Below, piece after piece: positions 31,156-47,480 of a stretch of 64,000 nucleotides of DNA (within the stretch, counting starts at the first letter, position 1; every line of letters begins with the position of its first letter). The stretch is taken from contig NZ_JACETV010000005.1 of assembly GCF_013912375.1 (NCBI RefSeq), forward strand, positions 1 to 64,000, written 5' to 3'. Origin of the DNA: Emticicia sp. BO119 (GTDB lineage: Bacteria > Bacteroidota > Bacteroidia > Cytophagales > Spirosomataceae). Position numbers and translations under genes: made by a program. The notes under the pieces are model-generated. The model was given only the letters and a program-made list of their open reading frames with translations. It searched no databases and was not told the origin of the DNA.

Positions 31156-32475
31156 TTATTTACTTTCTGTTCCATTATTGACAGCACTTCTCAGCCTCAC
31201 CAGCTCAGCCTTTATTTCTTCAATTGAAGCAGATAGCAATTCGTTTTTCTTTGTCAGTTTATCTATCTGATTTTGTTGATTTTTGTTGATGGTATTGAGT
31301 TCTTGTACAGCATTCACCAAAGGCATTACAAAATCAGAATAGGCCAGAGAATACATACCATTATCCGATTTTTTCAGGCCACTGAAAGGTATATTCAACT
31401 CTTTCATCACTTTCTCAACGTCCTGTGCAATGAAGCCATCATAACGAGTCTTATTACCATCAGCAATATAATTATAAGAAACAGTCTGCAAACGGGTAAT
31501 AAAATCTAAGTCCAAGCGGTTGGTGTAAAGAATATTTTCTTTTAGACGTCGGTCGGATGGGTTACTCCAGGGCACTTGTCCTTCAATGACTGAAACGGCA
31601 GAATTACCTATTCGGACTTTGTTGGAGGCATCGACTGTAGTGGCATAGCCGATAGCTGTTGCGTTTATATAATCGGAACCAGAAGGTACATCTGCATTAT
31701 GGCCTATAAAGGTATTGAATCCGCCGACACTATTCGCACCAGCCTGATTACCTATGGCGGTGTTGTAATTGCCTGATATATTATTGTACAAAGCACCACG
31801 GCCTATGACAACATTGTAGCTCCCGGTTTTATTTTTATACATTGATTCGTAGCCTCCTGAAAAATTCATTTCCCCTGTGTAGTTATCATATAAAGCTACA
31901 CTACCTATACTGGTGTTTCCTGAGCCGCTTTTATTGCTAATAGACGACCAATACCCTACTGCAACATTATTATTGCCGGTAGTGTTACCTGCCAGTGCCG
32001 AACTGCCAAGAGCAGAATTATTTGAACCAGACACATTCGTATTAAGTGCGTTCCCACCCACTACCACATTATATTTTCCTGACTCATTAAAATATAAGGA
32101 AAAGCTCCCGATACCGATGTTTTCGTATGACTGATTGCGTTTTGATGCAAATGCACCGATAGCGATATTATTAAAGCCTGTTGTACTGTTTTGCATAGAT
32201 GCTTTACCTATGGCAATATTGCCGCCTCCTGGTGTATCAATGTCTTGCAGGGAGTGATTTCCGATAGCTATATTGTTATAATCAGCCATTTTTTTATTAA
32301 GCGCATAACTCCCAAAAGCAATGTCACTATTTATTTCAAAGGTATAAGGTGGCTTATTGTTATTTGTTAAAAATCCCTGGGGAGTTAAAGTAATTGAGCC
32401 TTCATAGATACTGGTAACTCTTATTTGTCCGAACGACGCATTCATTATAAAAAAGAAGAAGAGTAGTTTTTTCAT
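31156..32475 (-). CDS. Secreted head-repeat fibre with C-terminal S74 (endosialidase-type) chaperone domain
   Basis: The protein has 439 residues from the ATG at 32475; a GTG at 32520 is in frame but the ATG gives the signal peptide (KKLLFFFFIMNASFGQ). Residues 40-290 are 14-residue YadA-like head repeats (NNIAIGNHSL, NNIAIGAFAS, NNSALGSSAL), forming a trimeric beta-prism. The C-terminus is an intramolecular S74 chaperone with the Ser-Lys dyad in SDRRLKENI, followed by a coiled coil. These self-cleave after trimer folding. It lies just outside the prophage and has a close paralogue inside it (35472-36764). Confidence 0.85.
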   Translation of the reverse strand: MKKLLFFFFIMNASFGQIRVTSIYEGSITLTPQGFLTNNNKPPYTFEINSDIAFGSYALNKKMADYNNIAIGNHSLQDIDTPGGGNIAIGKASMQNSTTGFNNIAIGAFASKRNQSYENIGIGSFSLYFNESGKYNVVVGGNALNTNVSGSNNSALGSSALAGNTTGNNNVAVGYWSSISNKSGSGNTSIGSVALYDNYTGEMNFSGGYESMYKNKTGSYNVVIGRGALYNNISGNYNTAIGNQAGANSVGGFNTFIGHNADVPSGSDYINATAIGYATTVDASNKVRIGNSAVSVIEGQVPWSNPSDRRLKENILYTNRLDLDFITRLQTVSYNYIADGNKTRYDGFIAQDVEKVMKELNIPFSGLKKSDNGMYSLAYSDFVMPLVNAVQELNTINKNQQNQIDKLTKKNELLSASIEEIKAELVRLRSAVNNGTESK

Positions 32476-32866
32476 TGCAGAATTAGTCAAAGAATGAATT
32501 TTAACTGCATGACTGCTCACGCAAACGAAAGGTTGGAATTTGTATTATTTCAGTAAACAGGTCTGAAAAGTTGCCTACAAAACAAAGACCCTGATTAATT
32601 TACTTTGTTCCAATCTCTAATTAGCATAAAAACAAAAAGTGCCTATAGTCATAAAACCATAAGCACTTCAATTTTGTGGAGAAGATGGGACTCGAACCCA
32701 CGACCTCTTGACTGCCAGTCACCAACCTTTCTTTATATTGCTTTATATTTCGTAATGTTTTATAATAGAAATAGGCTTTTTTAGCTTAAAATACGACTCT
32801 TTTTACTCATGTCTTTATAGTAAATTATACTGACGCATGAATTATTTATTGCAACTTTTATTGCAA
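32476..32866. other. Host-phage junction region
   Basis: The 391-nt region holds the tRNA-derived attachment site (32677-32721). Between it and the integrase is an AT-rich segment with a direct repeat, CTTTATATTGCTTTATATT, that may be an integrase arm site. Confidence 0.6.
32677..32721 (-). other. Prophage attachment site: 3' end of tRNA-Ala(GGC)
   Basis: On the minus strand these 45 nt give the GGC anticodon in the loop CTGGCAG, a variable loop AGGTC, the T-arm GTGGG-TTCGAGT-CCCAT, the acceptor strand CTTCTCC and discriminator A. The 5' half (acceptor, D-arm, 5' anticodon stem CTTGA) is missing: the bases beyond 32721 do not pair. This is the signature of integration into a tRNA 3' end, and the integrase gene lies 146 nt away. 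The complete tRNA should lie at the far end of the prophage, beyond the window, on the same strand. Confidence 0.85.
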
Positions 32867-34240
32867 CTATAAAAGCGCTTTGAGGTACTCTTTTACCTGG
32901 TCATCTTCAAATGAACCTAAATAGTTTTGTGTAGTGGAAAGATTACCGTGCCCTAAGGATTGGGAGATAAATGGCAATGGTGCCCCACTTCTCAAAAGTA
33001 TAGTTGCAAATGAATGTCGAGCAGTATAGGTATCCATTTCAGCATCAATTTCTAGCTTTTCAGAGATTAACCGCATATGTTTATTGGTAACTTTGATAAT
33101 CTGTTTTATGACAGCTATTTTTCTTAACTCTGTATCTGCTCCATCGAGAAAAGGGAAAAACAATTCACTATCTTCATTGTTGTTTTTTAACTTTTCGAGT
33201 AATGGTATAAGTTGAGGAAACAACATAGCTACTACCGCTTTTTCTTTCGATTTAGTAGCTGATTTTGTTTTATTTCGGATAAATCTAATAACCTGGTTCT
33301 TATAATCAACGTCCGCCCTTCTTAGCCGGCATATATCAGAAAAATTCATTCCATTAGCCAGGTAACTAAAAACCCACAATATCCAGCTTCGTTCTTCGAA
33401 AGAGTTGTCAGTCGGGATATAATTCAATATCTTTTCTATATCAGCTTTAGATAGTGCTTTTTTGATATTCTGCACGGATGGAATAACAAAGGCCTTTGGA
33501 CCAAACGGATAGTTTTCGTTTGAAATAACTTTATCGGCAATAGCAGTATTATATACAGCTCTGACATAACGCAGATATATACCTGTAGTGGTGGGGGATG
33601 CTGGAGATGGTTTGCCCTCTTTTGATTGTGGAGATTTACCATATTTGAGCATCCATTTTTCGTATTTTCTCAGAAAAGAGATGGTAATAACTTTGAAAGG
33701 CAAGCCATCAGCCTGTAAAGATAGCCCTAGCACACTTCTTTCATCTTTAGAAAGAGAGTCTAAGAACCTGTTCAATGATTTTGCAGCCATTTCATAGCCT
33801 GTAGCTGTACTTATTCGCTCTTCCTGAAATAAATCCTGAGATACTTTTTGCAAGGCGATGATTACATCTGTGATTTTGTTGCTTTCTGGATGATTGACAG
33901 ATATTTGAGGATTTTCAAAGTAATGTTTGAAAGTTTCAAACTCAAAATTATCACCCAAAACTTTTATTATTTCTTTAGCCCGATTTAAGTCAGAATCCTG
34001 TTTTTCGTAAAGCTCCTGGTACATAGATATTACATACTCATTTTTTACCTTACCTGACAGGCCGTTTTCATCGATAGACCTTTGCAGGATTTTAAATTCT
34101 TTTTCAGGCGCTTTATTTCCGGTTGTGAAGAGTCGGTTTTTGTAATTGTAGTAAACATTCACTTTTATCATACCAACCCCTTTAGGCAAGAATTTAGACC
34201 TGGTATCGAGAAATAAGCTTACAGTTACTACTTTATTCAT
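32867..34240 (-). CDS. int: Tyrosine recombinase (phage integrase, Bacteroidota type)
   Basis: The protein has 457 residues: an N-terminal Arm-DNA-binding domain (VTVSLFLDTRSKFLPKG), a SAM-like core-binding domain and a catalytic domain with TARHSFATILLRSGAPL (about 408), SLGHGNLSTTQNYLGSF and nucleophile Tyr (about 438). The position of catalytic Arg I reads NGMNFSDICRL, with Asn where GLR is usual, a variant I know from other Bacteroidota integrases. It lies next to the tRNA-derived site that it presumably uses and forms an operon with an HTH gene 5 nt upstream. Confidence 0.92.
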   Translation of the reverse strand: MNKVVTVSLFLDTRSKFLPKGVGMIKVNVYYNYKNRLFTTGNKAPEKEFKILQRSIDENGLSGKVKNEYVISMYQELYEKQDSDLNRAKEIIKVLGDNFEFETFKHYFENPQISVNHPESNKITDVIIALQKVSQDLFQEERISTATGYEMAAKSLNRFLDSLSKDERSVLGLSLQADGLPFKVITISFLRKYEKWMLKYGKSPQSKEGKPSPASPTTTGIYLRYVRAVYNTAIADKVISNENYPFGPKAFVIPSVQNIKKALSKADIEKILNYIPTDNSFEERSWILWVFSYLANGMNFSDICRLRRADVDYKNQVIRFIRNKTKSATKSKEKAVVAMLFPQLIPLLEKLKNNNEDSELFFPFLDGADTELRKIAVIKQIIKVTNKHMRLISEKLEIDAEMDTYTARHSFATILLRSGAPLPFISQSLGHGNLSTTQNYLGSFEDDQVKEYLKALL

Positions 34241-35471: not shown

Positions 35472-36764
35472 TCATTTAGATGCTTCTGACTTGCTACTTA
35501 CTTTCATTCTTTCCAATTCAGCCTTTATCTCATCAATCTCCGATAATCTGGCTGAGAGCAATTGATACTGTTTTTTTAGCTCCTCTATTTGCGCCTGTTG
35601 CTCTTTGATTGCATTGGCCAATGGCATGACAAAATCAGAATAAGCCAGAGAATAAGTGCCGGTTGAGGATTTTTTTAGGCCGCTAAAAGGTACACCAAGC
35701 TCCTGCATGACCTTTTCAACATCCTGAGCGATAAAGCCATCATGCCGGGTTTTGTTATCGTCTGCGATGTAATTGTAAGAGACTGTTTGTAGTCTGGTGA
35801 TGAAATCTAAACCTAACCGGTTGGTGTAAAGTATGTTTTCTTTTAAGCGGCGGTCGGATGGATTGGACCATGGTACTTGTCCTTCAATTACTGATACAGC
35901 TGAATTGCCTATCCGTACTTTGTTGGAGGCGTCTACTGTTGCTCCATATCCTAATGCGGTGGCGTTTATCCAATCTCCTGCGGAAATATCTGCATTGTGA
36001 CCAACGAATGTATTGAAACTTCCAGTGTTATTGCTACCTGCCTGATAACCTATAGCAGTACTATAATTGCCAGACAAATTATTGTATAAAGTACCTCTAC
36101 CTAATGCTACATTATAACTTCCTGAGATGTTTTTATAAAGCGATTCGTGACCAGCACCAAAATTCAATTCTCCTTGATTATAATAAAGTACAGAATTGCC
36201 TAATGCAATGTTATCTGAACCCGTTGAACTCTGAACCATTGCCCGAACACCAATAGCAGTATTAAAACTTCCATTTGTATTGGTGCCCAGGGCTCCTGTG
36301 CCTAAAGAGATATTATTAGAACCAGTTGTATTTCCACCTGAAGCACTGGCTCCAATCGCAATATTATATGTGCCAGAGGTATTATTTGCTAAAGCATTAT
36401 TGCCCAAACCTAAATTATTCCATCCTGACGTATTGCTTAAGGCTCTCATTCCAATTGCAATATTAAGCTCGGTTCTTGGACTATATTTCATCGCCTCTTG
36501 TCCTATCGCAATATTTGCCAGGCCATCAAACATGTTTTCCATGACATGATTTCCAATTCCTATATTATAGAGACCGGATTGGTTTTTATTAAGTGCCAGT
36601 GAGCCAATAGCAATATCTCCTGATAGTTGATATTGAGGAGCTTGTAAATAATAATTGCGGTGAAAACCATTGGGAGATATTGTAACTGAGCCTCCGATAC
36701 CTCCGGTTTCAATCTGGCTATAAGAGCAATAAGAAATAAATAAGAATAGTAATAGTTTTTTCAT
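35472..36764 (-). CDS. Secreted head-repeat fibre with S74 chaperone domain, prophage copy
   Basis: The protein has 430 residues from the ATG at 36764 (signal peptide KKLLLFLFISYCSYSQ). Architecture equals that of the host gene at 31156: head repeats (YNIGIGNHVM, LNIAIGMRAL, NNISLGTGAL), then SDRRLKENI and a coiled coil. The S74 region is nearly the same as in the host copy. It is carried on the minus strand among lysogeny genes with a small membrane gene and a lipoprotein gene, a lysogenic-conversion cassette by position, not a virion tail gene. Confidence 0.82.
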   Translation of the reverse strand: MKKLLLFLFISYCSYSQIETGGIGGSVTISPNGFHRNYYLQAPQYQLSGDIAIGSLALNKNQSGLYNIGIGNHVMENMFDGLANIAIGQEAMKYSPRTELNIAIGMRALSNTSGWNNLGLGNNALANNTSGTYNIAIGASASGGNTTGSNNISLGTGALGTNTNGSFNTAIGVRAMVQSSTGSDNIALGNSVLYYNQGELNFGAGHESLYKNISGSYNVALGRGTLYNNLSGNYSTAIGYQAGSNNTGSFNTFVGHNADISAGDWINATALGYGATVDASNKVRIGNSAVSVIEGQVPWSNPSDRRLKENILYTNRLGLDFITRLQTVSYNYIADDNKTRHDGFIAQDVEKVMQELGVPFSGLKKSSTGTYSLAYSDFVMPLANAIKEQQAQIEELKKQYQLLSARLSEIDEIKAELERMKVSSKSEASK

Positions 36765-36769
36765 CACGC

Positions 36770-37551: not shown

Positions 37552-38268
37552 TTAAAAAAATCTTTTTATTACTTTAAATATCTGATAAACTTCATTTAAA
37601 GAAAGCTCAAAATCTGAGTATTCCGGAGAGGGGTTGCGTGAGTGGCATTTTATTGTTCCTAATGAGATGTCAATCCCTATAATATCTTTAAACAGGATAT
37701 TTTTATGAGTCAAAATCACCCATCCATACTGACTTTCTTTTAATCCCCCATCAAGCCAAGAAATAACTGGTATTTCAAAACCCAATACAACGGATTTATT
37801 TGGTGAATCATCGATTAAACCTCCATTCATACTATCACCAGATACTTTAAATGCTAAATAATTTCCCTTTTCAATTTTCTCAATAATAAATACGATGGAT
37901 TTAAAATCTTTTATTATATGTGCATCATTAAATACATCAAGGTATTTTGCGTATGCTTCAAATGGAATAAGTGGGACTTGAATTTCGTAGCCACCATCAG
38001 ACAATTCTCTATATAAATATTTATTATTTCCATTGACCAATAAATCCGTTTTACTTAAAAATGTATCTAAATCCTCAATTTCAAACTTTTCACAAAAAAG
38101 TTGCAAAAAATTTTTTGTGACATGAGTTTTATTATTTAGATATGCACTAATACTTCCTTTATTTCGACCAGTCTTTAATGAAATTTCGGTTACTGGCCTT
38201 TCTAATTTCAATATTTCAACCGCTCTATTAAACTTAATGTTGTTAATACTATCCTTAAAATCAGTCAT
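37552..38268 (-). CDS. Phage repressor, HTH plus S24 (LexA-like) peptidase
   Basis: The protein has 238 residues. N-terminal HTH: RAVEILKLERPVTEISLKTGRNKGSISAYLNNK. C-terminal S24 domain: VSGDSMNGG with the nucleophile Ser at about 145, and a conserved Lys region in WVILTHKNILFKDI. This is the form that self-cleaves on SOS induction. It is divergent from the early operon and faces an operator-rich region (38269-38394), so it is the likely main lysogeny repressor. Confidence 0.85.
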   Translation of the reverse strand: MTDFKDSINNIKFNRAVEILKLERPVTEISLKTGRNKGSISAYLNNKTHVTKNFLQLFCEKFEIEDLDTFLSKTDLLVNGNNKYLYRELSDGGYEIQVPLIPFEAYAKYLDVFNDAHIIKDFKSIVFIIEKIEKGNYLAFKVSGDSMNGGLIDDSPNKSVVLGFEIPVISWLDGGLKESQYGWVILTHKNILFKDIIGIDISLGTIKCHSRNPSPEYSDFELSLNEVYQIFKVIKRFF

Positions 38269-41527: not shown

Positions 41528-41773
41528 ATGAAAGAAACTATCACCGAAAGCTTTCGAAAATATATCGGTAAAAAAGTAAAGGCATCTTGTAAAACAGGTG
41601 CTCCAGTAGTAGGAAAAGTGCTTGATGTGATTGATTCAGACAAAGGTTTAGCAAGAATCGATATTGAGCAAACGCATTACCGAAAGATTCGTGTAGGAAA
41701 TATTACAAGAGAGCCTAAGTTAGCTATTGCTAGCGTGTATTTGAAAAATATTATAACTGTTGAACTGTTATGA
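41528..41773 (+). CDS. Small beta-rich hypothetical protein
   Basis: The protein has 81 residues. The pattern KKVKASCKTGAPVVGKVLDV suggests a small barrel of SH3/Sm type. Its stop overlaps the start of the helicase-methyltransferase gene (ATGA), so the two are coupled. Confidence 0.6.
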   Translation: MKETITESFRKYIGKKVKASCKTGAPVVGKVLDVIDSDKGLARIDIEQTHYRKIRVGNITREPKLAIASVYLKNIITVELL

Positions 41774-44259
41774 GTGCTTATCAGGATTTCTTAAACGATA
41801 AAATAAAGCTTGCCGAAAAAACAGGCTTTGAAATAGCTTATACAGATATACATCCTGTTTTGATGCCACATCAAAAGGATTTAGTTAAGTGGGCTATAGC
41901 CGGAGGCAAAAGAGCGATTTTCGCCTCTTTTGGATTAGGCAAAACACTGATTCAATTAGAAATTCATCGCCAGATAGATGAGTGTGAAGGGGGTAATCAC
42001 TTAATCGTTTGTCCACTTGGAGTTAAACTAGAGTTCATGCGTGATGCCAAGAAAATTGGTATTGAAGAAATCAGATATATCACAAACTCAAATCAGGTAA
42101 CAGGTGATTGTAAGTATTATATCACTAACTATGAGCGTATAAGAAAAGGTGATATAAATCCCCGGGTGTTTATCTCATTGACATTGGATGAGTCATCTAT
42201 TTTAAGAGGTTTGTCAACGGAAACAACAGATGTAATCATGAAGGAATTCTCGTCAATTTCTTTCATATTTGCCTGTACAGCTACGCCATCACCGAACAGA
42301 TATTTGGAGCTTATCAACTACGCTGAATTTCTGGGCATCATGGATAGAGGTCAGGCACTTACAAGGTTCTTTCAACGTGATAGTACTACTGCAGGGAATC
42401 TTACTTTATACGAAAAACGCATCAAAGAATTCTGGTTCTGGATGAGTAGCTGGGCCTGTTTTATTACCAAGCCATCGGATTTAGGTTATGACAATACAGG
42501 CTATGACCTTCCTCCTATCAAAATACATAGACATCTGGTAAAGTTTGACAGAGAAGCCAGATTTGATAAGAAAACAGGACAAGGCACTATTATTGCCAAT
42601 AGTTCCAAGTCTTTGCCCGATGCAGCAGTAGAAAAGCGCAAATCAATCCCTTATAGGCTTGAAAAAATGAAAGAGATTCTTTCAGAAAACCCGGACGATA
42701 ATTTTCTATTATGGCATCATTTAGAAGATGAGAGAAAAGAGATTCAGCGGGAATTAGGGACTGATTGCAAAAGTGTTTGGGGGTCACAGGATCTGGACCA
42801 GAGGGAAGATTATCTCATCGGGTTTTCTGAGGGTAAATATAAATACCTTTCAACTAAGCCGGAAATAGCAGGCTCAGGTTGTAATTTTCAATACTATTGC
42901 AACAAAGCCATATTTGTAGGGATTGATTATAAGTTCAATGACTTCATTCAGGCGGTGCATCGTATCTACCGATTCATGCAGGAAAAACAGGTTGAAGTGC
43001 ATATTATCTACACTGACGCAGAAGAAGATATATTAAAGGCCCTTGAAGAGAAATGGCAGAACCATATCACGCTTCAAACTGAAATGACTGAAATTATTCA
43101 GGAATACGGTCTTAATTCGGATTTATATAAATCTGAATTGAAAAGAGAAATGTTTGTTGGACGTCGGGAAGTGAAAGGAAATAATTTCAGAGTAATCAAT
43201 AATGATTGTGTAGAGGAAACCAGAAATATGCCAGATAATTCAGTTGGGCTGATAGTTACTTCTATCCCATTTGGCAATCATTATGAGTATTCGGAAAATT
43301 ACAATTGTTTCGGACATAATGAGACAAACGAAGCCTTTTTTAGGCAAATGGATTTTCTAGTGCCAGAGCTTTATCGAGTGCTACAACCAGGTAGAATTGC
43401 AGCTATACATGTAAAGGACCGCATCAGGTATTCTTATATGAATGGAACAGGATTCACGTCAATTGACCCGTTTTCAGATGAGACTGTGACTTCATTCCGC
43501 AAACATGGCTTTCATTTGCTTTCACGCATTACTATCACAACTGATGTAGTGCAGGAAAATAATCAAACCTACCGTTTAGGCTGGTCGGAGAAATGCAAAG
43601 ACGGTACAAAGATGGGGAACGGTCTTCCTGAATATGTTCTGATATTCCGAAAAGCTCCCACGGATTCATCCAATGCTTATGCAGATATACCAGTTGTGCA
43701 TTCAAAACAGGAGTACACAAGAGCCAAATGGCAATTAGATGCACATGCATTCTGGAAAAGCTCAGGAGAACGATTATTTGATACTGATACTTTGAAAAAG
43801 CTTGATTTATCAGATGTTTTAACAATCTGGAAAGAACTGGAATTTGCAGAAGGATATAATTATGACAAACATGTGGAAATCTGTGAGAAATTAGATTCAA
43901 TTGGCAAGTTACCAAGTTCTTTTATGTCAGTACCTCCGCAGTCACATCACCCTGATGTATGGGATGATATTACCCGTATGAAAACGCTGAATTCAGATCA
44001 GGCTAAGAAGAATCTTAATAAGCATATCTGCCCGCTACAACTGGATATAACTGAAAGAGTAATTGAAAGATACTCCAATAAAGGTGAATGGGTATTAGAT
44101 CCTTTTGGTGGGATAATGTCAGTGCCTTATGTAGCCCTTCTAATGGATAGAAAAGGTTTAGGGATAGAATTAAACGCATCTTATTTCGATGATGGAGTAA
44201 AGCACTGCCGAAATGCAGAGCTAAAGAAAAATAGTGTGTTGGAACTTTTCAATTTATAA
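41770..44259 (+). CDS. Fused SF2 helicase and beta-class DNA methyltransferase
   Basis: The protein has 829 residues. Residues 1-450 form an SF2 helicase: Walker A FGLGKTLIQLE (about 53), DESS in place of DEAD (about 138), ACTATPSPNRYLE (about 170) and QAVHRIYRFMQ (about 395). Residues 450-825 form a methyltransferase in beta-class order: catalytic motif IV first, VTSIPFGNHYEY (about 495) in place of (D/S)PP(Y/F), then AdoMet motif I VLDPFGGIMS (about 774). The odd motif IV suggests a modified or specialised base target. Such fusions occur in Bacteroidota phages and may protect phage DNA. It is encoded directly before the DGR. Confidence 0.82.
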   Translation: MSAYQDFLNDKIKLAEKTGFEIAYTDIHPVLMPHQKDLVKWAIAGGKRAIFASFGLGKTLIQLEIHRQIDECEGGNHLIVCPLGVKLEFMRDAKKIGIEEIRYITNSNQVTGDCKYYITNYERIRKGDINPRVFISLTLDESSILRGLSTETTDVIMKEFSSISFIFACTATPSPNRYLELINYAEFLGIMDRGQALTRFFQRDSTTAGNLTLYEKRIKEFWFWMSSWACFITKPSDLGYDNTGYDLPPIKIHRHLVKFDREARFDKKTGQGTIIANSSKSLPDAAVEKRKSIPYRLEKMKEILSENPDDNFLLWHHLEDERKEIQRELGTDCKSVWGSQDLDQREDYLIGFSEGKYKYLSTKPEIAGSGCNFQYYCNKAIFVGIDYKFNDFIQAVHRIYRFMQEKQVEVHIIYTDAEEDILKALEEKWQNHITLQTEMTEIIQEYGLNSDLYKSELKREMFVGRREVKGNNFRVINNDCVEETRNMPDNSVGLIVTSIPFGNHYEYSENYNCFGHNETNEAFFRQMDFLVPELYRVLQPGRIAAIHVKDRIRYSYMNGTGFTSIDPFSDETVTSFRKHGFHLLSRITITTDVVQENNQTYRLGWSEKCKDGTKMGNGLPEYVLIFRKAPTDSSNAYADIPVVHSKQEYTRAKWQLDAHAFWKSSGERLFDTDTLKKLDLSDVLTIWKELEFAEGYNYDKHVEICEKLDSIGKLPSSFMSVPPQSHHPDVWDDITRMKTLNSDQAKKNLNKHICPLQLDITERVIERYSNKGEWVLDPFGGIMSVPYVALLMDRKGLGIELNASYFDDGVKHCRNAELKKNSVLELFNL

Positions 44260-44263
44260 AATA

Positions 44264-44704
44264 ATGAAAGCAATAGCAGAACACAACGGAAAGAAGGTAG
44301 AAATTCTTTTAACGCCTGATCAGGAGGCGGAGGTAAGAAGACAAACCTTTGATTACAAAACAATCACAACTGTAGAAGATGCTTTTAGCTTTTTAGATAT
44401 CAATTATACTGAATGGCTTGAAAAGCACAAAGAATTACCTTCTGATGTATTAGCTTATATGCAACTGACTCATATAACTAAAGCCATCAATGGTGGCGAG
44501 TGGATGACTTATGAGAGCACAAATGAATATAAGTATTATCCTTGGTTTTATGCGAAAGGTTCGCCCTCGGGTTTCTCGTATTGCGGCTACGTTAGCGTCA
44601 ACGATTACTCGCGCGTCGGCTCCCGCCTCACTTTCAAAAGCAGAGAAATAGCCATCTATGCAGGTAAACAATTTATTGAAATCTATAATCAGTATATCAA
44701 CTAA
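44264..44704 (+). CDS. DGR target protein 1 (variable repeat near C-terminus)
   Basis: The protein has 146 residues from the ATG at 44264. The first 75 residues are specific to this gene. Residues about 88-146 form a shared module: YKYYPWFYAK, then the variable segment GSPSGFSYCGYVSVNDYSRV (residues 99-118), then GSRLTFKSREIAIYAGKQF. The variable segment is encoded by VR1 (44558-44624). Relatives with the GSRLxFK-RE-A-YAGKQF ending occur as hypothetical proteins in Bacteroidota phages. There is no signal peptide, so the displayed surface is probably intracellular or on the virion. Its stop overlaps the start of target 2. Confidence 0.8.
   Translation: MKAIAEHNGKKVEILLTPDQEAEVRRQTFDYKTITTVEDAFSFLDINYTEWLEKHKELPSDVLAYMQLTHITKAINGGEWMTYESTNEYKYYPWFYAKGSPSGFSYCGYVSVNDYSRVGSRLTFKSREIAIYAGKQFIEIYNQYIN
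44558..44624 (+). repeat. DGR variable repeat VR1
   Basis: The 67 nt match the template repeat 45113-45183 from GGTTCGCCCTCGGG to GGCTCCC. In the 45-nt core (44580-44624) there are 10 differences, all at template adenines (to T four times, G five times, C once). It continues into GCCTC, shared with VR2 but not with the template, which marks the initiation of mutagenic homology side. Confidence 0.93.
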
Positions 44705-45084
44705 TGGAACATTTAAAAACATTCGAAGCAGCTGCCATCAGTTTAGGTAAAGACCCAAATATATTACCACAAGTAGAAGGTATTGATGAAGGCCATGCAA
44801 AGGCACTCACAGCAGTATATAAGCTTTTTATTATAAGCGAAGCAGCCTGGAAAGCTGAGGATAAAAAGATTGACTGGAATGACTTTGGCCAGTACAAATA
44901 CTATCCTTGGTTTGATATGGAGAATTCGTCGGGTTCGCCCTCGGGTTTCTCGTTTAACGTCTTCGGTTACGACTTCGCTTACTCGAGCGTCGGCTCCCGC
45001 CTCGTTTTTCCATCAAGGGAGATTGCCAGATATGTTGGGCAAACGCACCTTGAGCTTTACAAAGATTTGATGGTCATTCAATAA
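44704..45084 (+). CDS. DGR target protein 2 (variable repeat near C-terminus)
   Basis: The protein has 126 residues. Its N-terminal 65 residues differ from target 1, but the C-terminal module is paralogous: YKYYPWFDME, variable GSPSGFSFNVFGYDFAYSSV (about residues 76-95), GSRLVFPSREIARYVGQTHLELY. The variable segment is encoded by VR2 (44928-44998). TAATG overlap with target 1 indicates coupled translation. The two targets share one template, so the DGR diversifies both. Confidence 0.8.
   Translation: MEHLKTFEAAAISLGKDPNILPQVEGIDEGHAKALTAVYKLFIISEAAWKAEDKKIDWNDFGQYKYYPWFDMENSSGSPSGFSFNVFGYDFAYSSVGSRLVFPSREIARYVGQTHLELYKDLMVIQ
44928..44998 (+). repeat. DGR variable repeat VR2
   Basis: The 71 nt match the template from GTCGGGTTCGCC to GGCTCCC. 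In the 45-nt core (44954-44998) there are 11 differences, all at template adenines (to T seven times, G three times, C once). It is followed by GCCTC as in VR1. Confidence 0.93.
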
Positions 45085-45112
45085 AATATTGGGTGGTACG
45101 CTGCGCTGCGTG

Positions 45113-45183
45113 GTCGGGTTCGCCCTCGGGTTTCTCGTATAACGACTACGATAACGACAACGATAACTCGAACGTCAGCTCCC
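45113..45183 (+). repeat. DGR template repeat (TR)
   Basis: These 71 nt lie between target 2 and the reverse transcriptase. The core 45139-45183 has 17 adenines in 45 bases, largely in AAC, GAC, TAC and GAT triplets, the usual template design for maximal amino-acid change. Of the 17, 16 differ in at least one variable repeat. The 3' edge reads AGCTCCCATATC against GGCTCCCGCCTC in the VRs, so template and target differ in the initiation region as expected. The TR-bearing transcript probably runs on through 45289 to the RT start. An open frame over the TR (45093-45293) is probably not translated. Confidence 0.93.
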
Positions 45184-45289
45184 ATATCTGTAAAATCTTT
45201 GCAGCGTACACCTTGCTAACAATGCAAAAAATAAAAGTTCTAACGGGCATGAGTACTAAAAAGGAAAATGACCTACTAAAACAGAGGCA

Positions 45290-46255
45290 ATGAAAAGAAT
45301 AGGCAATTTATACACGAGCATATACGACATCAATAACTTGTATAGAGCTGATCGCCTTGCACAGCAAGGAAAAGCTAAACAATATGGTGTGATAGTTCAT
45401 AATCGCAATCAGGATGAGAACCTACATACGCTTCATCAGATGCTGATAAACAAAACCTACAATACCTCTGCCTATGCAGTTTTTAAAGTATTTGAGCCTA
45501 AAGAGAGAGATGTTTATAGGTTGCCTTATTTCCCAGATAGAATATTACATTATGCTATTTTGAATATTCTGGAGCCAGTTTTTATGTCAGTATTTACGGC
45601 AGATTCATATAGCTGTATCAAAGGGAAGGGCATACATAATACATTAAGAAACCTTAAAAAGGCGCTCAAAGACGTCGAAGGTACTATGTATTGTTTGAAG
45701 TTTGATATAACTAAATTTTATCCATCAGTAAACCATGACATTCTTAAAGATTTATTGCGAAAAAAAATCAAAGACAATGATCTGCTTTGGTTACTGGATG
45801 AAATCATTGATAGTGCGCCAGGTCTGCCTATAGGCAATTATCTTAGTCAATATCTGGCTAACTTCTATTTGACCTACTTCGATCATTGGCTCAAAGAAGT
45901 CAAAAAAGTGAAGTATTATTTTCGTTATGCGGATGATATTGTAATACTGTCAGATAGTAAAGTGCATTTACATACACTTCTGGCCGAATGTAGAGCATAT
46001 CTACTAAACAACTTAAAGCTGATTATAAAACCTAATTATCAGGTGTTTCCGGTTGATGCAAGAGGAATAGACTTTGTAGGGTATGTGTGTTTTCATACGC
46101 ATACAAAACTTAGGAAATCCATCAAACAACGATTTGCCAGAGCAGTGAAAGCAGGTAAAGGACCTGCGAGCATTGCCTCTTACAAAGGCTGGGCAAAGCA
46201 TGGTAACTGCCGGAATCTGATAAAGAAATTGCTATCAAATGAAGAAATTCAGTGA
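45290..46255 (+). CDS. DGR reverse transcriptase
   Basis: The protein has 321 residues, compact and lacking maturase or endonuclease domains. RT motifs are: LPYFPDRILHYAIL, LKFDITKFYPSVNHDIL (catalytic Asp), GLPIGNYLSQYLANFYL (about 178-195) and FRYADDIVILSD (YADD about 213). The GxxxSQ motif instead of QGxxxSP is the recognised mark of DGR reverse transcriptases. It would copy the template RNA with errors at adenines and replace VR1 and VR2. It starts 107 nt after the template. No Avd accessory gene is seen near it. Confidence 0.93.
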   Translation: MKRIGNLYTSIYDINNLYRADRLAQQGKAKQYGVIVHNRNQDENLHTLHQMLINKTYNTSAYAVFKVFEPKERDVYRLPYFPDRILHYAILNILEPVFMSVFTADSYSCIKGKGIHNTLRNLKKALKDVEGTMYCLKFDITKFYPSVNHDILKDLLRKKIKDNDLLWLLDEIIDSAPGLPIGNYLSQYLANFYLTYFDHWLKEVKKVKYYFRYADDIVILSDSKVHLHTLLAECRAYLLNNLKLIIKPNYQVFPVDARGIDFVGYVCFHTHTKLRKSIKQRFARAVKAGKGPASIASYKGWAKHGNCRNLIKKLLSNEEIQ

Positions 46256-46532
46256 CTTTGAAATTAAAAATGAACAAAAAACTTTTGTAGGTGACAAAAT
46301 CAAAATTAGTAAAATCCTCAACAAGGAGATAGTCGTGTTAGGTTTTGAAATTAAAGATTCAACGGTTTTCAAAGGTAAATGTCTCTATCTGCAAATTGAA
46401 GTCGGCGATAAAAAACATCTGGTTTTCACTGGCTCTAAAATGTTGATAGAATCTATTCAAAAGGTACCAAAAGACGGATTTCCATTTGAAACGACGATTG
46501 TAGAAGAGAACGAGATGTATCAGTTTACGTAA
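46239..46532 (+). CDS. Small protein coupled to the DGR reverse transcriptase
   Basis: The protein has 97 residues and its start overlaps the RT stop by 17 nt. It is beta-rich (KIKISKILNKEIVVLGFEI, GKCLYLQIEVGDKKHLVFT), not the helical bundle expected of Avd. It may be an unrelated phage replication accessory protein; similar short proteins occur in Bacteroidota phages. A role with the RT is only suggested by coupling. Confidence 0.6.
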   Translation: MKKFSDFEIKNEQKTFVGDKIKISKILNKEIVVLGFEIKDSTVFKGKCLYLQIEVGDKKHLVFTGSKMLIESIQKVPKDGFPFETTIVEENEMYQFT

Positions 46533-46547: not shown

Positions 46548-47480
46548 ATGAACTATATAGAATTGATTAATAATTTTTGGAAATTAGACGACGGTGCTCA
46601 ATTTACGGGCTGGGAAACCAAGCTTTATTTTTACCTCGTAAAAACGGCAAATGGTTTAGGCTGGGTGAATGATTTCTGGCATTCAGATGCAAAGACATCT
46701 GTCAACGTCGGAATGAGTATTAATACGATGAAGACTTCTCGTAACCGTCTCAAACAAGTAGGATTAATTGATTTTTTTATAGGTGGTAAAGGACATGGCG
46801 ATAAAACAAGGTATCAAATTTTGACACCTAAACTACAACCTAAAGTAGAATCTATTACAGATGAAAATGTGGATAACTCAATTAGGTATCAAAATTTGAC
46901 ACCTAACCTACAACCTAACCCATACCCTAACCTACAACCTAATGTAGAACCTAACCTATACCCATTAATTAAACTAAACGAAACTAAACTAAATGAAATA
47001 ACTACCCCTACAGAAAAAAGCGTTTTTGAAAAAAAAATTGAAAGCGAAAAACCTTCTTTCGTTCAGGTGCATACGGATGCCGCCAAAGAGATTGCAAGAA
47101 ATCAGGTAACGCCTGAGAAGCTGACAGAAGAATTACTCAACAACGAAACCTGTAAGATAGCGGTCAAAAATGCTGTAATACCGAAAGAAAATTATTCTCA
47201 GGTTGTTGAGAGGTTTGTTTCAGAGAAATTTGGACTGAAAGAAAATCTGAAATGGGTGGATATATCAGACGCCTTGAGTCATTTTATAAGATGGGTGAAG
47301 TTTTTACCACAAATTCTAAGACAAGAGCAAAATGGAAGATCAGGGAGCGTACAGCGTACCAAAAAGACCGGCCGCGTCATCGTCGAACAACCCGGGACAG
47401 ACGATTCAAGAATCGAAACTGATGAAAACGGGTTCAAATGGCGAATTTCAGCAGCTGGAGTTAAAACCTTTGCAGGATAG
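46548..47480 (+). CDS. Phage replication initiator (replisome organiser-like)
   Basis: The protein has 310 residues. The N-terminal 100 residues form a winged-helix replication domain (NFWKLDDGAQFTGWETKLYFYL, MSINTMKTSRNRLKQVGLI). The middle is a low-complexity region of LTPKLQP/NLQPNP-type repeats (about 95-145). The C-terminal part would contact the helicase loader. Position before a DnaC-like ATPase and the DNA repeats inside the gene parallel the lambda O/P arrangement. Its 3' end overlaps the loader gene by 149 nt. Confidence 0.75.
   Translation: MNYIELINNFWKLDDGAQFTGWETKLYFYLVKTANGLGWVNDFWHSDAKTSVNVGMSINTMKTSRNRLKQVGLIDFFIGGKGHGDKTRYQILTPKLQPKVESITDENVDNSIRYQNLTPNLQPNPYPNLQPNVEPNLYPLIKLNETKLNEITTPTEKSVFEKKIESEKPSFVQVHTDAAKEIARNQVTPEKLTEELLNNETCKIAVKNAVIPKENYSQVVERFVSEKFGLKENLKWVDISDALSHFIRWVKFLPQILRQEQNGRSGSVQRTKKTGRVIVEQPGTDDSRIETDENGFKWRISAAGVKTFAG
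46809..46965 (+). repeat. Iteron-like repeats, candidate phage origin
   Basis: A segment of about 35 nt beginning AGGTATCAAA-TTTGACACC occurs at 46809 and again at 46884. Between and after them are several 12-nt units of the form CCTAACCTACAA (also CCTAAACTACAA, CCTAACCTATAC). They lie inside the initiator gene, the usual place of lambdoid-type origins. Coding low complexity is the alternative explanation. Confidence 0.55.

Follow-up and report, generated by a model that had tools for sequence, protein, structure and literature searches.

We found, in a 64,000-nucleotide stretch of the Emticicia sp. BO119 genome (the window), what is probably a complete, Avd-less diversity-generating retroelement (DGR) of a temperate Bacteroidota phage, for which an RNA frame and the product of a linked gene, ORF97, are proposed as partner. 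Judged by its sequence, the element is a DGR of the Avd-less kind that is already known, and as a DGR it is ordinary. New here are the helix that closes the template repeat (TR) together with the folded spacer, the linked ORF97 and the small helical targets, the DGR class itself being known; through its RNA frame, its linked gene and its early-type helical targets, the branch is a variant.

Locus, sequence differences and class

An earlier note on this DNA had described a complete DGR between 44264 and 46255, in the order target 1, target 2, TR and reverse transcriptase (RT), the latter with GxxxSQ and YADD motifs. Order and motifs (GxxxSQ as GNYLSQ) are as described, and the DGR is borne out; its end, however, was placed too early, as the partner gene runs to 46532 (Table 1). 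A provirus record in IMG/VR (L009) is identical to the window over the RT, and its coordinates suggest a provirus that spans window position 31156 to past the window end. A helicase/N6-methylase gene lies upstream of the DGR, and replication-initiation and helicase-loader genes together with a C5 methylase lie downstream; by this sequence context, the DGR is seated among early-type genes of a predicted prophage. The ORF at 41770-44259 has both a helicase-like and an N6/N4 DNA methylase part, and the replication-initiation-like gene contains short direct repeats of the CCTAACCTACAACC type (46809-46953), which are possibly an origin iteron array. At the left prophage end, distant from the DGR, the two fibre-like ORFs are similar to each other, with an S74-chaperone-like end by eye.

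Table 1. Positions of the DGR parts and of the surrounding prophage genes in the window.
Feature	Position	Strand	Basis or remark
Fibre-like ORFs	31156-32520 and 35472-36767	minus	named by reading the sequence, not by search
Integrase-like ORF	32867-34240		named by reading the sequence, not by search
Repressor-like ORF	37552-38268		named by reading the sequence, not by search
Whole DGR: target 1, target 2, TR, spacer, RT, ORF97	44264-46532	+	
Target gene 1, 146 aa, phrog_11581	44264-44704	+	profile match, AlphaFold2 model
VR1	44558-44624	+	10 differences from TR, all at A
Target gene 2, 126 aa, phrog_11581	44704-45084	+	ATG overlaps target 1 stop
VR2	44932-44998	+	11 differences from TR, all at A
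H1 5' arm (TR-closing helix), bulged G at 45096	45092-45104	+	covariation, 53 loci; retested in loci outside the defining set
TR, 67-nt block, 17 A	45117-45183	+	
Spacer RNA, full extent of the match to covariance model R1	45177-45292	+	91.1 bits
H1 3' arm	45201-45212	+	covariation
Spacer hairpin H2, then A run	45214-45226	+	alignment, covariation
Spacer hairpin H3-H5, inner loop AGUA/GAA in the window	45245-45273	+	alignment, covariation
DGR reverse transcriptase, 321 aa, GNYLSQ, YADD	45290-46255	+	
ORF97, 97 aa, phrog_19665, candidate partner gene	46239-46532	+	overlaps RT by 17 nt
Terminase- and portal-like ORFs	from 53666		named by reading the sequence, not by search

A shared 22-mer occurs in both VRs and in the TR, at 44558, 44932 and 45117 on the plus strand of the window and nowhere on its minus strand. 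Comparison of the three repeats by program over 67 nt reproduced the counts that had been obtained by hand, 10 differences in VR1 and 11 in VR2, all 21 at a template A (A to T in 11 cases, A to G in 8, A to C in 2); 16 of the 17 template adenines are altered in at least one VR, the sole unaltered one being A45166. With positions taken as independent, the hypergeometric chance that all differences fall on A is 7.8e-8 for VR1 and 9.6e-9 for VR2 in the 67-nt block, and 6.1e-6 and 1.2e-6 in the 45-nt core. The restriction to A holds inside this block; just 3' of it, where the TR reads CATATC and the VR CGCCTC, there is a T-to-C difference, and the statement 'A only' therefore hinges on the chosen 3' boundary. 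Two of the 21 differences, likewise at a template A (A45177, which is G in VR1 and VR2), probably reflect a fixed IMH/IMH* difference, because relatives (52 distinct TRs) have G opposite the corresponding A in 95 of 109 VRs. IMH and IMH* are recognised here by sequence, as a conserved 3' block with this A/G difference at the VR and TR 3' ends; a stem-loop just after IMH, a feature of BPP-1, was not found in the targets (four stretches, z -0.24 to -0.95). Searched against the 6.57-Mb genome, the TR block returns TR, VR1, VR2 and five short weak places. The sixteen variable adenines sit in AAY, GAY and TAY codons, which allow about 3e9 proteins and make a stop codon impossible.

The RT matches Pfam RVT_1 and PHROG 1423 (398 bits). 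Its closest match in the PDB is 8ub7 (133 bits), which we take to be the BPP-1 bRT, and the next is a group II RT (59.6 bits). A placement among retrons or group II introns, which by the earlier note would refute its reading, was not found, the respective models staying far below their cut-offs (TIGR04416 for group II, 109.1 bits versus 300; NF038233 of NCBIfam for retrons, 57 bits versus 235). In a 40-row tree that covers DGR and group II RTs and no retron RT, 38 DGR-type RTs stand apart from two group II intron RTs (support 100/99); the BPP-1 bRT forms a long branch, and many forks of the Bacteroidota part are open. The nearest RT that was found in a named genome is that of Pedobacter arcticus (72%).

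An RT-seeded viral set, the best 80 of 324 relatives, contains a TR/VR pair in 74 of its 80 loci (one VR in 11 loci, two in 47, three in 15 and four in one), and in all six others the RT begins at most 268 nt from the locus end. Some relatives carry further VRs several kb off the cassette (L022 at 2469, L041 at 708, L059 at 1931, L072 at 116 and L027 at 15491), so that one TR serves distant targets. The pooled count of mismatches at A in relatives (2037 of 2072) was set aside as evidence, since the scoring favours A and thereby inflates it; a control with C, G or T as free base and a comparison of sister sequences were therefore used instead. Among 62 loci with enough upstream sequence, the best TR/VR pair attained a score of at least 45 in 60 with A free and in none with C, G or T free. 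Seven groups of relatives with the same TR were compared for VR differences, of which four show none, while in L066/L067 one member's VR was not read. In the two remaining groups the TR is constant and 56 of 58 VR differences fall on a template A, so that non-A changes are far from being as frequent as A changes, in what is a comparison of relatives and not of sisters of the window locus; L014 and L016 differ outside the VR too, and the L030 group shows no differences in the margins shown. This variation in relatives supports A-directed mutagenesis, for which the basis at the window locus is its own sequence differences only.

The TR-closing helix and the folded spacer

Alignment of related loci supports a helix that closes off the TR, H1, which covaries and has an invariant bulged G, and a folded spacer behind it. 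RNAalifold, applied to 59 loci from the target 2 end to the RT start, recovered H1 and H2 unprompted. For alignment A2, the 74 loci with a TR were reduced to 59 by removal of duplicates, long spacers and short flanks, and then to 53 rows, leaving out L013, L063, L075, L084, L085 and L086; by inspection, five of these six have arms that fit H1 and L085 has none. The structure counted in A2 comprises 23 pairs in five helices. Its cells are paired in 96.0% of cases versus 77.0% after shuffling and 34-46% after sliding, 20 of the 23 pairs have changes on both sides (13.7 shuffled), 246 cells carry a two-sided change (62.7 shuffled) and the score is 0.598 (0.218 shuffled); none of 500 shuffles attained any of the five measures, in a count that took identical rows once and in which related rows remain. 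The two arms of H1 pair with each other and enclose the TR, with G as the bulged base in all 53 rows, and the H3-H5 inner loop, AGUA/GAA in the window, is mostly GGUA/GAA in relatives.

The window RNA folded alone also yields H1. Its folding energy is ordinary compared with shuffled sequences (z -0.29), and the RNA case therefore rests on covariation. Since most single loci scored inside the shuffled-control range in the first arm scan, it was only the alignment that made the helix clear.

A covariance model of the spacer alone, R1, which excludes H1, scores highly in the window (Table 1), with L009, a record of the same prophage, among its training rows. At E<=1, R1 matched 66 of the 80 genome loci, with low scores among Firmicutes (22.6-43.4 bits), and had no match in L165-L178, the last of which is BPP-1. 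Four crAss-like phage DGRs reach 28-42 bits with R1 and have complementary arms by inspection. H1 was then retested in 65 of the 66 R1 hits, L164 being omitted as it shares a contig with L163, and seven loci that duplicate training rows were excluded; this filter took out exact duplicates only and thus leaves close kin in, and loci were grouped by record title. Behind a GGYNG motif, 40 of the 47 non-duplicate loci outside the group of Firmicutes and other relatives form 7 or 8 of the 8 pairs, whereas 200 permutations gave 4.7 such loci on average and never more than 10, a comparison biased in favour of the helix, as the observed arm is the best of several positions and the null uses only that position. 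The loci with the helix hold 32 distinct arm pairs. H1 was not found in the other seven of these 47 loci, nor in the 11 Firmicutes and other relatives except for one Ignavibacteriales locus. H1 also persists in the genome's second DGR, as GGTGGTATGCTGT/ACAGTATACACC, where both of its sides have changed.

In the window, all Rfam families stay below their cut-offs; RT-14 is listed at 23.1 bits (cut-off 48.1), and RT-17 (RF03020, cut-off 40.4) has no match at E<=10. The window spacer nevertheless looks like a divergent relative of RT-17, because this family passes its cut-off at the same place in some relatives (L118, L138, L152 and L154) and is matched below it in others. Three RT-17 matches at E<=0.001, one of them over the cut-off, were obtained in 395 genomes, and each lies, by coordinates, just upstream of a DGR RT and ORF97; in the loci where it is matched, RT-17 is by sequence and place the DGR spacer. 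The likeness consists in a CCUUGCC-GGCAAAA hairpin, a UGGUA/GAA loop and the place before a DGR RT, and the difference in a family model that begins at 'gaCC' and contains neither the TR nor the H1 5' arm. A search of titles and abstracts in the open literature found none that deals with H1, with ORF97 or with RT-17 as the spacer of a DGR.

Linked gene, target proteins and alternative readings

Avd (PF22296) was detected in none of 49 records (48 virus records, of which many are fragments, plus the genome of the window) and was detected in BPP-1; PF05635, an Avd-related family, has one match, on another contig of the same genome. Wu 2018 is said to have described 'conserved hypothetical' DGR accessories. 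A review (PMC10053308) lists HRDC and MSL as other accessories and cites from Wu 2018 one more protein associated with DGRs, which has neither a Pfam nor a CDD assignment. ORF97 could be this protein. About a quarter of DGRs have no accessory-gene homolog, according to PMC7290462.

In the viral set (best 80 of 324 relatives), an ORF97 homolog lies at most 270 nt from the RT end in 74 of the 79 loci with enough sequence, a count that includes our own record and several near-identical loci. In 32 of 77 genome loci its distance from the RT end is between -80 and +400 nt, and in about a dozen more it is near +410 to +447; a second-round profile found the gene somewhere in 52 of 80 genome loci. ORF97 was not found in the Firmicutes loci, BPP-1, the crAss loci or, except for L167, the Proteobacteria loci of this set; the crAss loci include four DGRs with a matching spacer, in which it was not found as such. 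A divergent ORF97 in crAss RT C-termini was considered and rejected, the match being weak, with E 0.0092 in a set of 11 sequences and, by hhalign, E 0.0082 (probability 4.8%) and 0.095 (0.6%). Two crAss-like phages, L194 and L196, have in-frame stops in the RT and neighbour genes under table 11, which suggests a recoded stop codon. In L121, the RT is preceded rather than followed by a weak ORF97-like ORF (2564-2791). ORF97 itself gave scattered weak matches and none that convinced against Pfam and PDB sequences, and an OB fold, seen by eye, was dropped, as the Pfam and PDB scans gave no support.

Both targets match phrog_11581, a family matched in 2 of 98 genomes (our own and G054), and a tblastn search with target 2 in 50,697 phage records returned nothing. 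Their AlphaFold2 models (pLDDT 87.3 for target 1 and 86.4 for target 2) are mostly helical, with the VR at low confidence. Neither model has a Foldseek match in the PDB at E<=0.001 (best 4.2 and 3.6), none of 28 chains reached Z 2 against target 2 in VIA-align, and hhalign found no match of the targets to Mtd (probability 0.2%); in BFVD, searched with target 2 only, four matches at E<=0.001 are all uncharacterized. C-type lectin targets are not supported by the two models, Foldseek, VIA-align or hhalign, a test of the fold that is limited because the VR is modelled with low confidence. PMC8144416 assigns C-type lectin folds to annotated VR regions and presumes the uncharacterized VR domains to be novel variants of this fold. 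As to the neighbourhood, 20 chosen proteins, mostly larger ORFs, were surveyed in 10 related loci. Eleven match primase, SbcC-like, RecT-like, helicase, HNH, Mu-like transposition or methylase families; the rest are one hydrolase, one polynucleotide kinase, one head protein about 6 kb off and six without known function.

The element could be a decayed DGR that carries old A-specific differences only, which we consider very unlikely: both target ORFs, the RT and ORF97 are open in the window, and relatives with identical TRs differ in their VRs. What speaks for decay is the second two-target DGR of the same genome (G000:C1:840210-842186; L093, L180 and L226), in which VR2 is one base short at a template AA, with a frameshift in the second target. 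Very unlikely, too, is that ORF97 has no part in the DGR and is simply a conserved gene next to it, such as one for a general nucleic-acid protein of phages. Early phage operons are conserved, and a virus search seeded with two ORF97 queries, in which all 18 loci have a DGR RT 2-14 nt upstream and 14 contigs are absent from the RT-seeded set, reaches only close relatives of these queries. Yet in 395 genomes all six ORF97 matches have a DGR RT 2-337 nt upstream, the protein forms the C-terminal domain of the RT in L127, L135, L154 and L155 (the last two near-identical), it precedes the RT in L167, and it is found alongside an integrase-like gene in a prophage and alongside Mu-like genes in further loci. 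Gene position and RT fusions thus mark ORF97 as a candidate dedicated accessory of this DGR type.

The role of the targets is more evenly balanced. They may be virion adhesins for host receptors, like Mtd or the crAss-like tail proteins, in an ordinary tropism DGR, a reading to which we give somewhat less than an even chance. Viral targets in three of six DGR clades are mostly annotated as tail proteins according to PMC8144416, and two-target phage DGRs with C-type lectins exist, as the nd4/nd12 account reports (PMC10743442). The targets described here, however, have only 126 and 146 aa and no tail-attachment domain that we found, they lie between helicase/methylase and replication genes, they lack a PDB fold match and a match to Mtd, and no tail protein is among the 20 chosen neighbours in the 10 relatives. 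Alternatively, they may act inside the cell, for instance as a binder library against host or rival-phage factors during early infection or in the lysogen, which has about an even chance of being right. This would fit the early-type position in the window and in relatives, the small size of the proteins and the two to four VRs in 63 of the 74 loci (best 80 of 324 relatives), although position alone is weak evidence. From their gene context, the target proteins are probably made with the early genes, and an intracellular role appears slightly likelier than that of a tail adhesin.

Proposed mechanism and comparison with known systems

We propose that one transcript would run through target 1, target 2, TR, spacer, RT and ORF97. 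The RNA just after target 2 would pair with the start of the spacer to form H1, for which the covariation argues, and this pairing would therefore set the TR in a loop beside the spacer hairpins H2-H5. This RNA frame would be bound by the RT, most likely together with ORF97, which would occupy the position of Avd in BPP-1. By analogy with BPP-1, the RT may start cDNA in or next to the spacer and misread template adenines, and synthesis may be stopped at the H1 5' arm. In either target, the mutated cDNA would then take the place of the VR as far as the conserved IMH block.

As a broader and rather doubtful extension, a whole branch of Bacteroidota DGRs may use a ribonucleoprotein other than that of BPP-1, in which a bulged-G helix loops the TR, the spacer is RT-17-like and ORF97, sometimes fused to the RT, stands in for Avd, and which in phages like this one diversifies small early proteins that are not C-type lectins. 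For Avd-less DGRs, the closing helix and the RT-linked gene would be two testable parts for the class; the findings would furthermore link Rfam RT-17 with the spacer in DGR template RNA, and they point to DGR targets outside the tail.

With the BPP-1 DGR, the element shares the A-specific TR/VR differences, an RT of the type that is the best PDB match of the window RT and, according to PMC12875486 and PMC8867640, a structured spacer or trailing RNA. BPP-1 differs in that it has Avd, a spacer without R1 match and an mtd target beside tail genes; an H1-like pairing sought in its flanks gave a complement score of 21, judged without a null of its own, and we do not claim such a pairing. The phage DGRs nd4/nd12 likewise serve two targets from one TR, but, according to PMC10743442, they have Avd, and their targets are C-type lectins of 234 and 294 aa and tentaclins. 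The DGR of crAssphage LMMB has, according to PMC7290462, a single large tail-collar target, which its authors class with the C-type lectins and which lies by a cluster of structural genes, and ORF97 was not found in it as such. In the other direction, its spacer matches R1 (28.3 bits) and, weakly, RT-17 (30.5 versus a cut-off of 40.4), and by inspection its arms are capable of forming H1. It also has the order target, TR, RT without avd, and this order and the lack of avd are the traits in which our element resembles the 'lineage 3' DGRs treated in PMC7290462, the lineage being that of Wu 2018.
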